From Kribbella jejuensis (GTDB lineage: Bacteria > Actinomycetota > Actinomycetes > Propionibacteriales > Kribbellaceae): a stretch of 64,000 bases of DNA. The stretch lies in NCBI RefSeq assembly GCF_006715085.1, contig NZ_VFMM01000001.1, positions 186,001 through 250,000 of the forward strand, given 5' to 3'. Below are positions 56,970 to 61,419 of the stretch, piece by piece. The position numbers and the translations under genes were made by a program. Positions within the stretch are counted from its first letter, which is position 1. Each line of letters opens with the position of its first letter. Below the pieces are notes generated by a model. The model searched no databases. It was not told the origin of the DNA and saw only the letters and a list, made by a program, of their open reading frames with translations.

Positions 56970-58178
56970 ATGACCAAACTCACGGCGCAAGCCCTCGTCC
57001 GCGCCTCCGGCGGGCCCCGGTACGCCGTTGCGCTGACCGTCGACGCGCTCGGCACCGGCCTGCTCCGGCCCTTCCTGCTCCTGTACGGCGTGACCGTACT
57101 GCGGCTGTCCGCGACCGCCACCGGGATCGCGATGACGGCCGGCGTCGTCGTCGCACTGGTATGCATGCCCGGCGTCGGCCGCTGGCTGGACCGGGGCGCC
57201 CGCAGTACGGTCGTCGCGGCCTCCATGCTGATCCGGGTCGTCGGTGTGGCGCTGCTGCTGGCCACGCGGCCCGGACAGGTCTGGCTGTTCGCGGCCGCGG
57301 TGCTCTTCCTTGGCATCGGCAACCAAGCGTGGCCGGCCGCCCACGCAGCTCTCGTCGCCACAGTCGCCCAAGGCCGCGACCGCGACGCCGCCCTCGCGGC
57401 CGGCCGTTCCCTCCGCAACGCAGCGCTCGGCGTCGGCGCACTCCTCGCCACGGCCTGCCTGGCAGGCGGCCCCACCGCGCTCCATGCGATGGCGGCCGCG
57501 ACCGGGCTCGCCTACCTGGTCGCCGCCGCCCTGGCGTGGTCGGTCCACGTCCAGGCGCCTCCGACGAAAGGCGCAGTCCCGACCGACGCGCCCCCGATGC
57601 TCACGCTCCTCGCGGCCAACGTCATCTACGTCTTCTGCCTGAGCGTCCCGGAGATCGCGATCCCGGTGGTCATCGTGACCCAACTGCACGCCTCCCCCGC
57701 ATGGTCGGCGGCGATCTTCGTCGCCAACACGGTTCTCGTCGTCACCCTGCAGGTCCCGGTCACCATCGCGATGTCGCGCTTCTCCCGGCGCACCGTGCTC
57801 GCCTTCGCAGGCGTCGTACTGGCCGTGTCCTACCTGGGCTTCCTGGCCGCGACGTCGCTGGCCCCGGGATGGCGGGCCCCCGCCGTCGCCGCTGTCTCCA
57901 TCCTCTGCACGCTAGGCGAAGTCATGTACGCCGGCAGCGCCACCGCTCTCGTCGCCGCGGAAACGCCGCCTCAGCTCCTAGGCCGCGCCCTGGCCCGCTT
58001 CCAGCTCTCGACCGGCTTCAGCCTCGCCGTCTCCCCCGCCGTCATCACCACCCTCGCCGCCCGCAGCGAGGCCACTGTCTGGCTGACCCTCACCACCACA
58101 ACTGTCCTGGCCGCCACGGCGATCGCTACCGAGCCGGGTAGGCAGCGTCGACCTCGACCTCAACCAGCCAGCCGCTGA
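56970..58178 (+). CDS. MFS transporter
   Basis: A 402-residue MFS protein with twelve helices of the MdtG/efflux-like type. The first helix follows RYAVALTVDALGTGLLRPFLLLYGV; the loop between helices 2 and 3 carries GRWLDRGARSTVV, a motif-A relative. The ATG at 56970 is used; an in-frame start at 56934 would sit in the palindrome. Divergent from the ArsR-type gene, which probably represses it; the substrate is unknown. Its end overlaps the convergent RidA gene by 53 bases. Confidence 0.88.
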   Translation: MTKLTAQALVRASGGPRYAVALTVDALGTGLLRPFLLLYGVTVLRLSATATGIAMTAGVVVALVCMPGVGRWLDRGARSTVVAASMLIRVVGVALLLATRPGQVWLFAAAVLFLGIGNQAWPAAHAALVATVAQGRDRDAALAAGRSLRNAALGVGALLATACLAGGPTALHAMAAATGLAYLVAAALAWSVHVQAPPTKGAVPTDAPPMLTLLAANVIYVFCLSVPEIAIPVVIVTQLHASPAWSAAIFVANTVLVVTLQVPVTIAMSRFSRRTVLAFAGVVLAVSYLGFLAATSLAPGWRAPAVAAVSILCTLGEVMYAGSATALVAAETPPQLLGRALARFQLSTGFSLAVSPAVITTLAARSEATVWLTLTTTTVLAATAIATEPGRQRRPRPQPASR

Positions 58179-58779
58179 CCGGCAGGTTCTCGATCTCCAA
58201 GGCGAAACGCGACGGACGGGCCTTGTTCACCACGAACGGTTTCGCCGGTGGCGCCGTCCCCAGCGGGACCGGCACGTACGCGCCGGTGCTGAGGTCGGTG
58301 TTCGCGAAGTACTGGCGGTACGCGCGGTTCCAGCCGGCGAAGTCGGCGGTTGCCGCACCGGTCGGATTCTGCAGGAAGACGCGCATCGTATAGACGTCGG
58401 CGTACGACAGGCCGACCGCGGCCAGGTTCTCGCCGATGCGCCGCAGTACGTTGATTCCTTGGGCTTCGGTGATCGTGACGCCCGCGGGCAAGTTGCCGCC
58501 GGGGAAGATCGCGGTGTCGACGTACGACGCCTCGCTGCCGGCCGGGGCACCCGTGTTCAAGGCCGACGGGCCGATCCCGCTCGTCTTGTAGACCGGCGTG
58601 TTCGCGCCGATACCGACACCGGTCGCGATCAGCGGATTCGACTGACCGGCCGGCAGCGCGGGGACGACGGTCCCCGGTCGCGGCGGCTTCGGCCGGTCCC
58701 ACCAGCCCGCCGCCGTACCTGCGCCGGCCGTGAACGAGACGACCAGCGCGACAACTCCGGCGATCAAGCGTGTCTTCAT
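58126..58779 (-). CDS. Exported RidA-family protein
   Basis: A 217-residue protein with a signal peptide (1-25, KTRLIAGVVALVVSFTAGAGTAAG) followed by a RidA/YjgF domain (about 60-210). Domain features are AIFPGGNLPAGVTITEAQGINVLRRIGENLAAVGLSYADVYTMRVFLQN and a C-terminal LVEVEVDA strand. RidA proteins hydrolyse reactive enamines and imines to 2-oxo acids and ammonia, normally in the cytoplasm. Here the export signal and the 4-base overlap with an exported amine/amino-acid oxidase suggest it removes the imine made by that enzyme outside the cell. The catalytic Arg is plausibly in YTMRVFL. Confidence 0.88.
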   Translation of the reverse strand: MKTRLIAGVVALVVSFTAGAGTAAGWWDRPKPPRPGTVVPALPAGQSNPLIATGVGIGANTPVYKTSGIGPSALNTGAPAGSEASYVDTAIFPGGNLPAGVTITEAQGINVLRRIGENLAAVGLSYADVYTMRVFLQNPTGAATADFAGWNRAYRQYFANTDLSTGAYVPVPLGTAPPAKPFVVNKARPSRFALEIENLPVSGWLVEVEVDAAYPAR

Positions 58780-60356
58780 CGGCCCGCCACCACCCGGCTG
58801 TGCAGCGCGGTCACGGTCGCCCGCGCCGACGTCATCGCGCCGTGCTGCCAGGCGATCGCATGCGACAGGTGGTCGCCGGCGAAGTAGATGTTGCCGGTGG
58901 CATCGAGCAGCCGCGCGTAGATCCCGTCGGTCTGCGACGGCCAGCTGACCCAGGACCCCTCGGAGTACTTCGTACCCAGCCAGTTCACCGAGAACGAGGC
59001 CTTCACGTCCTTCGTGTACACGTCGCCGTGCATCTTCGCGCCCTGCATCAGTGCCCGCTGCAGCCGCGCCGCGGGCGTCAGCGCGCCGTACGTGTTCGCA
59101 TTGGTGCCGGTGTTGTAGTAGCCGATGACCGTCCCGCGTTCGCCGTGGAAGTTGTACGACGGATACCAGGTGTTGACCGTGTCCAGGCTGCTGTTGGTGA
59201 TGCCGCCGTAGATCCGGTGGTCCTCCTCCCACCACCGCCGACCGTACTCGATGCCGATCTTGCCCGCGTTCGTCGGCCGCGCGTACTTGAGCGCCTCCGT
59301 GATCGCCGCGGGCAGGTTGGACGGGACCTTCGCGGCCAGGTGCGGCGGCAGGGCGCAGATCGCGTAGTCCGCGGTGATCACCCGGGATCGGGTGCCGGTC
59401 TTGTACGTCACCTCGACGCCCGCGCCGGTGTTCCGCAGGGCGGTCACCTCGGCGCCGTACCTGATCTTCTCCTTGCCGATCGCGCGCTCGAACGCGTACG
59501 GGATCCGGTCCATCCCACCGACCGGCTGGAACATCATCATCGCCTGGTCCCAGCCGAACTCGAACGAGAAGTAGTTGCCGACACCGCTGGCGAAGACGTC
59601 GCTCAGCGCGTACGGCGCGGCCGTCGTACCGCCCTCGAGACCGGCGCCGGGCTCGACGGTGTAACCGCGGCGGCCGTCCGTGCCGGTGTAGGCGAAACCG
59701 GACGCCTTGTTGCCGATCGATCCGAAGCTGCTCAGGAAGCTGATCAACGCCTGCTTGTCGGTCTCCGTCAGCAGTGCGTCGAGGGCGCCTTGGTCGGTGG
59801 CGGTCGCGAGGAGCTCGGCGACGTACCCGTACACGTCGGCTTTCGCGGTCCGGTGCCGGATCGGCTTGTTGGAAAGGGCTGTGTTGCCCTCGCGGTACAG
59901 ATATGCGTCCGCGTTCTGGTTGACGAACGGCTCGATCGCCACGCCGAGCTCGCGGCAGTAGTCCAGCGTGACGTGATGCTGCGGCAATCGGGCCGGGCCG
60001 GCATTCATGTACTGGCCGGGCGAGAAGGTCGCCCGCTGCGTGTTCCCGGCCAGGTCGGTCTCGACCGTCCCGCCGCGGACCGTCCAGTTCCGGCCACCCG
60101 GGCGGTTGCGGGCCTCGAGCAACGTCACTTTGTAGCCGGCCTTGAGCAGCTCGTACGCCGAGGTGAGACCGGCGATGCCGGCGCCGAGGATCACGACGTG
60201 CTTGTTCCGCCCGTTCAGCTCGACCCGCGACGGCGCGGCGTACGCGGGGGTGTCGGCCACGCTCGTCAGGCCGAGCGCCGACATCGTGGAGTACAGCACA
60301 CCGGCCCCACCGGTGATCCCGACCTGCTGCAGAAACTGACGTCTGGTCTGCGCCAT
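58776..60356 (-). CDS. Exported flavin amine oxidase (L-amino-acid oxidase-like)
   Basis: A 526-residue FAD-dependent amine oxidase. A Tat signal (QTRRQFLQQVGITGGAG, residues 3-19, cleavage near APAYAA) precedes the FAD domain. The dinucleotide motif is VVILGAGIAGLTSAYELLKAGYKVTLLEARNRPGGR (about 54-89), and the C-terminal FAD motif is IYFAGDHLSH. This is the monoamine/L-amino-acid oxidase fold: it forms an imine and hydrogen peroxide. The RidA gene overlaps its end by four bases. Substrate is likely an L-amino acid or amine. The 5' gap of about 230 bases holds the iron box of the divergent ZIP gene. Confidence 0.92.
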   Translation of the reverse strand: MAQTRRQFLQQVGITGGAGVLYSTMSALGLTSVADTPAYAAPSRVELNGRNKHVVILGAGIAGLTSAYELLKAGYKVTLLEARNRPGGRNWTVRGGTVETDLAGNTQRATFSPGQYMNAGPARLPQHHVTLDYCRELGVAIEPFVNQNADAYLYREGNTALSNKPIRHRTAKADVYGYVAELLATATDQGALDALLTETDKQALISFLSSFGSIGNKASGFAYTGTDGRRGYTVEPGAGLEGGTTAAPYALSDVFASGVGNYFSFEFGWDQAMMMFQPVGGMDRIPYAFERAIGKEKIRYGAEVTALRNTGAGVEVTYKTGTRSRVITADYAICALPPHLAAKVPSNLPAAITEALKYARPTNAGKIGIEYGRRWWEEDHRIYGGITNSSLDTVNTWYPSYNFHGERGTVIGYYNTGTNANTYGALTPAARLQRALMQGAKMHGDVYTKDVKASFSVNWLGTKYSEGSWVSWPSQTDGIYARLLDATGNIYFAGDHLSHAIAWQHGAMTSARATVTALHSRVVAGR

Positions 60357-60519
60357 GCCTTACTCCTCACTGGGCAACGGATAGCTGACCAGAAAAGTAA
60401 GGACTTGATGTTTTCGGACCGTGTCAGCACCGTAACAGCAAGACACTCGTACTGGTAGGTAGGTTTCAGCGGGCTCTCAGACTCCGCCGAGTGACGAAGT
60501 TCCCATCGCTCAGGGGTTG

Positions 60520-60538
60520 TTAGGTCAGCCTTGCCTCT
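60520..60538 (+). promoter_or_regulatory. Iron-box-like (IdeR/DmdR) site before the ZIP gene
   Basis: TTAGGTCAGCCTTGCCTCT matches 13 of 19 positions of TTAGGTTAGGCTAACCTAA, with a perfect left half (TTAGGT). It lies 51 bases upstream of the ZIP start. IdeR/DmdR normally represses uptake genes when iron is plentiful. Confidence 0.5.
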
Positions 60539-60588: not shown

Positions 60589-61419
60589 ATGTCCAGCTCC
60601 CAGGTCGCCGTGCTCGGTGCGATCGCCGGCTTCACCATTTACCTCGGGCTCCCGATCGGCCGGTTGCGGGCTCCGGCGCCGCGACTCAAGGCGGGGCTGA
60701 ACGCGCTCGCGATCGGCATCCTGGTCTTCCTGTTCTGGGACGTCCTGACGCACGCGTGGGAGCCGATCGACGAGGCGCTGGCCGGCAAGCACTGGGGTAC
60801 GTCGCTCGGCAACGGCCTCGTCCTCGCTGCCGGACTGGCGATCGGGCTGCTCGGGCTCGTGTACTACGACCGCTGGACCGCGCGCCGCCGTGCGACCGCG
60901 TCGAGCATCGGTCCCGGCGCCGCCTCCACCGGCGATCCCGCGCTGAAGCCGCAGGCCAAGTCCGCCGCGGCCGGGCTGGCACTGATGATCGCGACCGGGA
61001 TCGGGCTGCACAACTTCGCCGAAGGTCTGGCGATCGGCAACTCCGCCGCCACCGGTGAGGTGTCGCTCGCGGTGCTGCTGATCATCGGCTTCGCCCTGCA
61101 CAACGCCACCGAGGGCTTCGGGATCGTCGCACCGCTCGCGGCGGCCGGTGAACGGCCGAGCTGGACGACGCTCGCACTCCTCGGCCTGATCGGCGGCGGC
61201 CCGACCTTCGTCGGAACCCTGGTCGGCCAGCGGTTCGTCAACGACTCGATGTCGATCGCGTTCCTCGGCCTCGCCGCCGGCTCGATCCTGTACGTCGTGA
61301 TCGAGTTGCTCTCCGTGGCCCGCAAGGCCGGCCTCAAGGAGCTCACCACCTGCTGCATCCTGCTCGGCCTCCTGGCCGGCTTCGCCACCGACGCCATCGT
61401 CACCGCTGCGGGCGCATAG
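60589..61419 (+). CDS. ZIP-family metal transporter
   Basis: A 276-residue protein with eight helices. The metal-binding motifs of ZIP helices 4 and 5 are HNFAEGLAIGNSA (near 151) and HNATEGFGIVAP (near 182), each with His, Asn and Glu. A cytoplasmic loop follows helix 3 (about 95-130). ZIP proteins import Zn2+, Fe2+ or Mn2+. GGAG lies seven bases before the ATG, and the upstream iron-box-like site hints at Fe control. Its end overlaps the convergent GyrI-like gene by 20 bases. Confidence 0.92.
   Translation: MSSSQVAVLGAIAGFTIYLGLPIGRLRAPAPRLKAGLNALAIGILVFLFWDVLTHAWEPIDEALAGKHWGTSLGNGLVLAAGLAIGLLGLVYYDRWTARRRATASSIGPGAASTGDPALKPQAKSAAAGLALMIATGIGLHNFAEGLAIGNSAATGEVSLAVLLIIGFALHNATEGFGIVAPLAAAGERPSWTTLALLGLIGGGPTFVGTLVGQRFVNDSMSIAFLGLAAGSILYVVIELLSVARKAGLKELTTCCILLGLLAGFATDAIVTAAGA

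Follow-up and report, generated by a model that had tools for sequence, protein, structure and literature searches.

The oxidase and Rid genes of the locus

We examined a 64,000-nt stretch of the Kribbella jejuensis genome (contig NZ_VFMM01000001.1, positions 186,001 to 250,000; hereafter the window, in which all positions are counted), where two adjacent open reading frames (ORFs) on the minus strand encode a flavin L-amino acid oxidase and a small protein of the Rid family, both with predicted export signals. The oxidase gene (58776..60356, 526 aa) specifies an enzyme of the twin-arginine translocation (Tat) type that resembles the L-amino acid oxidase of Rhodococcus opacus (roLAAO), and the gene behind it (58126..58779, 217 aa) specifies a putatively exported protein of the Rid3 type. 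Both ORFs start with ATG and were read in the sequence where the preliminary description of this DNA had placed them, sharing 4 nt in an ATGA (58776..58779, minus strand) that joins the oxidase stop to the Rid start. The oxidase start codon is preceded at a distance of 6 nt by a Shine-Dalgarno-like GAGGAG (60363..60368, minus strand), which is retained when the upstream regions of 14 relatives are aligned. The pair is flanked by genes for a major facilitator superfamily transporter (PF07690, MFS_1) and a divergent ZIP transporter (PF02535, Zip). The nearest relatives found in our scan belong to Kribbella species, with a Rid identity of 93%; some of the Rid queries covered positions 58132-58779, i.e., 216 of the 217 residues.

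The oxidase matches PF01593 (E 6.1e-48), and its residues 52-523 match roLAAO (PDB 2jae) with an E-value of 1.3e-167, a full-length homology that places both enzymes in the same family across nearly the whole mature chain. L-amino acid oxidases are its nearest solved relatives, with roLAAO ranked first, and aligning the related oxidases puts its identity to roLAAO at around 50% (Rhodococcus rows, 50-54%). The glycines of the flavin adenine dinucleotide (FAD) motif and R123 are invariant across 19 oxidase rows; we take R123 to be the counterpart of the carboxylate-binding Arg84 of roLAAO. When compared with NCBIfam, no family scored above its cut-off among the matches listed (the best 25 of 104). 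By analogy with roLAAO, the window enzyme would oxidize L-amino acids with O2.

The partner matches PF01042 (E 1.2e-9; 38.7 bits vs. a cut-off of 27.3), yielded two NCBIfam rows, neither above cut-off, and scores 22.8 bits with TIGR00004, the model of archetypal RidA, which is below the cut-off of 106.25. In an alignment of the window protein with 80 relatives (81 rows), the counterparts of E. coli RidA Arg105 and Glu120 are R191 (codon 58207..58209, minus strand) and E207 (codon 58159..58161, minus strand), each conserved in all 80 rows that extend to its column. The position of E. coli Tyr17, at which archetypal RidA is marked by Tyr or Phe, corresponds to I51 and is occupied by Ile in 81/81 actinobacterial rows as well as in 6/6 rows from other phyla. 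Retention of Arg and Glu with replacement of Tyr by Ile is the residue set given for Rid3 in the accessible text of PMC4433059. Since the window protein matches this set, we assign it to subfamily Rid3 by its sequence marks, rather than to archetypal RidA as the preliminary description had presumed.

The structural comparisons and the tree point to the same subfamily. The predicted structure of Rid, obtained from a 29-row alignment (best mean pLDDT, the predicted local distance difference test score, 82.2; five models, 53.8 to 82.2), is closest to the Rid3 proteins PSPTO3006 and PFL1385 (PDB 9bka and 9bkc), with Foldseek E-values of 7.0e-10 and 6.5e-8, respectively; the VIA Z scores of the predicted model are 16.2 and 13.7, and the next match reaches 11.2. 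Among solved structures, these two are the closest to the window Rid by sequence as well as by fold, and they share its Arg, Glu and Ile marks. In a tree of 30 proteins, built with these two known Rid3 proteins and with Rid1, Rid2 and Rid4-Rid6 left out by design, 19 putatively exported Rids and PFL1385 and PSPTO3006 are separated by a branch with 99/99 support from nine others, six of which come from the window genome and carry no subfamily assignment. The inner order of the tree is unsure, with long branches for Metabacillus and several of the nine others. Unlike PSPTO3006 and PFL1385, the actinobacterial Rids possess two inserts of 15 and 22 residues, which were delimited by alignment and conservation at residues 89-103 (58471..58515, minus strand) and 163-184 (58228..58293, minus strand). 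The actinobacterial members keep both inserts, and the aligned rows of E. coli, Metabacillus and proteobacteria have neither. According to the part of PMC5619798 available, Rid3 proteins reduce semicarbazone formation from imines made by venom L-amino acid oxidase in vitro, and by analogy the window Rid would be an imine deaminase.

Export signals and pairing in actinobacteria

Signals were called by our own rule combining hydropathy and motif rather than by SignalP. The oxidase starts with MAQTRRQFLQQVGITGGAGVLYSTMSALGL, a twin-arginine region of about residues 1-40 (60237..60356, minus strand) in which the two Arg are followed by the hydrophobic stretch characteristic for Tat substrates. In turn, the Rid N-terminus, MKTRLIAGVVALVVSFTAGAGTAA followed by GWW, is of the Sec type and covers about residues 1-24 (58708..58779, minus strand). 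As a control, we calculated N-terminal hydropathy for the other six PF01042 proteins of the genome across the start codons printed for them, and their 12-residue values did not exceed 1.33, vs. 2.84 for the window Rid.

We extended the comparison to 80 actinobacterial loci, the best of 156 relatives found in a scan with six query peptides, in which adjacency of an oxidase was no criterion; as the best-scoring relatives, they are orthologues by construction. One of the 80 Rids is cut by a contig end (L026, 175 aa) and another reads through to a later stop (L056, 280 aa). The Rid N-terminus is hydrophobic in 80/80 loci, with best 12-residue means of 1.96 to 3.07, and a signal-like start in every relative rules out that the signal is an artefact of the start chosen for Rid. 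An oxidase adjoins Rid in 78/78 loci with DNA at the expected place, 53 of them co-directional and 25 divergent, and all 78 oxidases carry the twin-arginine motif (72 by script and six by inspection of the start). The 4-nt overlap recurs in 24 of the 53 co-directional relatives, given the script's choice of starts, and the divergent genes are separated by 304 to 376 nt (n=25). The signal-bearing Rid beside a Tat-type oxidase, as proposed in the preliminary description, is thus a shared property of the relatives and not of the window alone.

Some Rids may be anchored in the membrane by lipid. A lipobox is found in 19/80 Rids with a loose pattern and in 4/80 with a strict one. Seventeen of the 19 belong to Rhodococcus, Prescottella and Pseudonocardia, with the Cys positioned as in a lipoprotein, and the loose lipobox is doubtful in the remaining two, which are Kribbella rows (L017, L018). 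No mature Rid contains a Cys beyond residue 45 (80/80). One of the 80 loci is that of roLAAO itself: in R. opacus ATCC 51881 (L060) the oxidase is identical to 2jae across the 485 residues printed, and a Rid gene, with its start as picked by the script, begins 29 nt downstream. The deposited 2jae chain starts at residue 46 of the L060 precursor, which would fit either removal of the signal or truncation of the construct at that point. The Rid at the roLAAO locus is a predicted lipoprotein, whereas that of the window is a predicted soluble secreted protein. We found no paper that treats roLAAO together with its neighbouring Rid.

Co-occurrence was surveyed in 245 genomes of the window's order with two alignments, A1 (window and 28 of the 80 Rids; E<=1e-10) and A2 (window and 18 of the 78 oxidases; E<=1e-100). 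Both genes were detected in 35 genomes, the oxidase alone in two, Rid alone in none and neither in 208; for the window's genus, the 38 genomes listed divide into 26 with both and 12 with neither. Single-linkage clustering of the neighbouring frames gave one component of 854 frames present at all 81 loci, which holds the oxidase, Rid and shadow frames and into which another gene was possibly merged; no other component among the 15 listed spans more than 20 loci. Across these comparisons, the two genes seem to be passed on together as one unit. A locus labelled Streptomyces sp. SID13031 (L019) contains a Kribbella-like pair with a Rid identity of 84% and may represent a mislabelled Kribbella.

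Plasmid loci and upstream surroundings

Related pairs also occur in Bacillota, accompanied by tatA-tatC, and in proteobacteria, accompanied by cytochrome c genes. Our examination of plasmids covered 16 of the 36 records with an oxidase match and 15 of the 23 with a Rid3 match, and Rid lies within the fetched stretch in 9/16 oxidase loci. The plasmid of Metabacillus dongyingensis (L098:3474-6737) shows the gene order oxidase, Rid, tatA, tatC, the latter two being a probable dedicated export system that travels with the pair. Signal starts outside the phylum were detected in Rids adjoining the oxidase in Metabacillus, Sulfitobacter, Paracoccus, two Microvirga and Ketogulonicigenium, and in a Sphingomonas Rid about 3 kb from the oxidase. 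Export signals on both proteins are conserved across genera and phyla. Where no match to the oxidase lies within 3.5 kb of a Rid3 gene, the signals are clear in Proteus and Cupriavidus and plausible in Bosea, which extends predicted export to some Rid3 proteins lacking the oxidase; the Azospirillum gene, with an insertion sequence element upstream, shows no signal in its open frame and is one case against. Three further copies are damaged, one from Komagataeibacter and two from Sulfitobacter, and one of the Sulfitobacter copies is accompanied by a remnant of an oxidase.

For a Comamonas odontotermitis plasmid Rid (L099:5746-6204), the annotated start gives no signal and seems to lie downstream of the true one; an earlier ATG in the same frame yields an N-terminus with a lipobox. 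The deposited sequence of PFL1385 (PDB 9bkc) carries LLFAASSSWAAG ahead of the domain, which resembles an unprocessed signal peptide.

Of 15 loci examined (14 labelled Kribbella and one Streptomyces), 12 have a gene for a GDSGG-motif protease upstream of the oxidase on the same strand (e.g., L011:1542-2303), and the one such protease that we tested belongs to the trypsin family (PF00089). A protease next to the pair would fit a peptide-to-ammonia route, yet the window lacks it and has the divergent ZIP transporter gene (60589-61419) in its place. A motif near ACAGGTTCGTTAACCCGAAACATACCTGTC that is in part an inverted repeat, at about 60445-60475 in the window, is conserved in L009-L022, some 120 nt ahead of the oxidase gene; it may be an operator and is weakened in the window. 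A DtxR/IdeR-like box lies at 60520-60538, ahead of the ZIP transporter gene, with 15/19 matches in the window and 11 to 14 in 14 relatives to what we take to be the consensus. As a regulator of the pair it was rejected, for it is not conserved upstream of the relatives' oxidases and the match count suggests one more site of equal quality elsewhere in the window.

Proposed function of the pair and its alternatives

Gene pairing, co-inheritance and the conservation of signals and residues are computed results, from which we infer export, catalysis and the role of both proteins. We consider it probable that the oxidase and Rid3 constitute one extracytoplasmic unit for amino acid deamination. The oxidase would fold with FAD inside the cell and leave by Tat, and Rid would leave by Sec, as their signals imply. 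Outside the membrane, the oxidase would convert L-amino acids to 2-imino acids and pass the electrons to O2 with formation of H2O2, an acceptor suggested by roLAAO and by the fact that no cytochrome c gene adjoins the pair. Rid3 would then hydrolyse the released imine by means of R191 and E207 to a 2-oxo acid and ammonia. The imine chemistry is well founded by homology, both to the nearest solved L-amino acid oxidase and to other Rid3 proteins assayed in vitro. Acquisition of nitrogen from free amino acids would be the most likely use, with ammonia released quickly and the envelope spared some of the damage that imines cause, and the peroxide would be either a by-product or a weapon.

Several points weigh against such a unit. 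The signal rule is crude, and the activity, location and interaction of the two proteins are predictions. The gain from Rid may be small, given that imines hydrolyse spontaneously as well. The co-occurrence counts are not independent, with 26 of the 35 genomes possessing both genes coming from one genus, a kinship that the Fisher p-values of the order survey disregard, and in a sample of 396 genomes from the phylum Rid and the oxidase were each found only in the window genome, so that this sample carries no information on co-occurrence and indicates that the pair is rare in an even sample. Rid is not indispensable to the oxidase, as it is missing from 2/37 oxidase genomes of the order (G412 and G423, none within 10 kb of the oxidase), and seven of the 16 oxidase loci on plasmids have no Rid in the fetched stretch. 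These seven come from Deinococcus and from the proteobacteria Paraburkholderia, Mesorhizobium, R. gallicum, Roseinatronobacter, Dinoroseobacter and Thiodictyon. In all six annotated Rid-less loci (L105-L107, L109-L111) a cytochrome c gene adjoins the oxidase, which ties the oxidase of those groups more closely to cytochrome c than to Rid and suggests a dehydrogenase-type variant. In the window and in Metabacillus, Rid follows the oxidase and there is no cytochrome c gene; the cytochrome c-linked kind would feed the respiratory chain and the window/Metabacillus kind would use O2.

Three alternatives to a deaminating unit were considered. Rid might be mainly a structural or protective subunit of the exported oxidase, or a chaperone against peroxide damage, and no enzyme. 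The two conserved inserts could serve as docking surfaces, and a Chlamydomonas periplasmic L-amino acid oxidase complex with RidA described as a non-catalytic subunit is cited in the available part of PMC5053998. We regard a purely structural Rid as unlikely, however, as such a role would not need the catalytic Arg and the Glu that are retained in 80/80 rows. Slightly less likely still is that the pair acts on another amine or amino acid derivative, and hence on a different imine. Flavin amine oxidases vary in substrate and the identity to roLAAO leaves room for this, but the nearest solved relatives are L-amino acid oxidases and R123, with its presumed role in carboxylate binding, is invariant. 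That the Rid signal is unused and the protein stays in the cytoplasm like ordinary RidA is very improbable even with a crude rule, as Sec-type signals and lipoboxes swap while the domain persists and none of the genome's six other Rids has such an N-terminus.

The deaminating unit that we favour has precedents. The accessible text of PMC4433059 reports clustering of RidA, and sometimes Rid3, genes with FAD amine oxidase genes and proposes the same chemistry. In Gluconacetobacter diazotrophicus, the lao-cccA-ridA operon brings together a Tat-type L-amino acid oxidase and a RidA gene (PMC5053998, part of the text); it includes a cytochrome c gene, which the window pair, with its overlapping genes and its MFS_1 and Zip flanks, does not, and in that part of the text export is predicted for the oxidase and not for RidA. 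Chlamydomonas reinhardtii LAO1 and LAO2/RIDA are encoded in one gene cluster and both described as periplasmic (PMC10805672, as far as its text is available). This couple, LAO1 with a putative RidA, is extracytoplasmic like the window pair, although it comes from a eukaryote and is compared here by its published description. The two-protein exported module of the preliminary description is supported in that its signals are conserved and the pair is stable across gene orders and species, but an extracytoplasmic L-amino acid oxidase with RidA had already been published. The terms signal, export, secret, extracellular, N-terminal and periplasm do not occur in the text of PMC5619798, nor do periplasm and signal peptide in that of PMC4433059, where secret appears once. 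A literature search, with most subscription journals outside its reach, found no report of an exported, periplasmic, secreted, extracellular or lipoprotein RidA. On these grounds, the export of the bacterial partner and its Rid3 identity, together with the strict actinobacterial pairing, appear to be unreported in the literature searched, while the principle is already known.

A wider proposal, to which we give even chances, is that Rid3 represents an extracytoplasmic branch of the Rid family, i.e., secreted or lipid-anchored imine deaminases that mostly accompany Tat-exported L-amino acid oxidases. PFL_1385 would then possess an unnoticed signal peptide, and the two actinobacterial loops would dock on the oxidase, passing the imine outside the membrane. 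A fixed co-exported partner would name the source of the Rid3 substrate, namely imines made outside the membrane, and metabolite-damage control would extend to the cell surface. In that case roLAAO, for which structures have been solved, may also have a natural partner that escaped notice.

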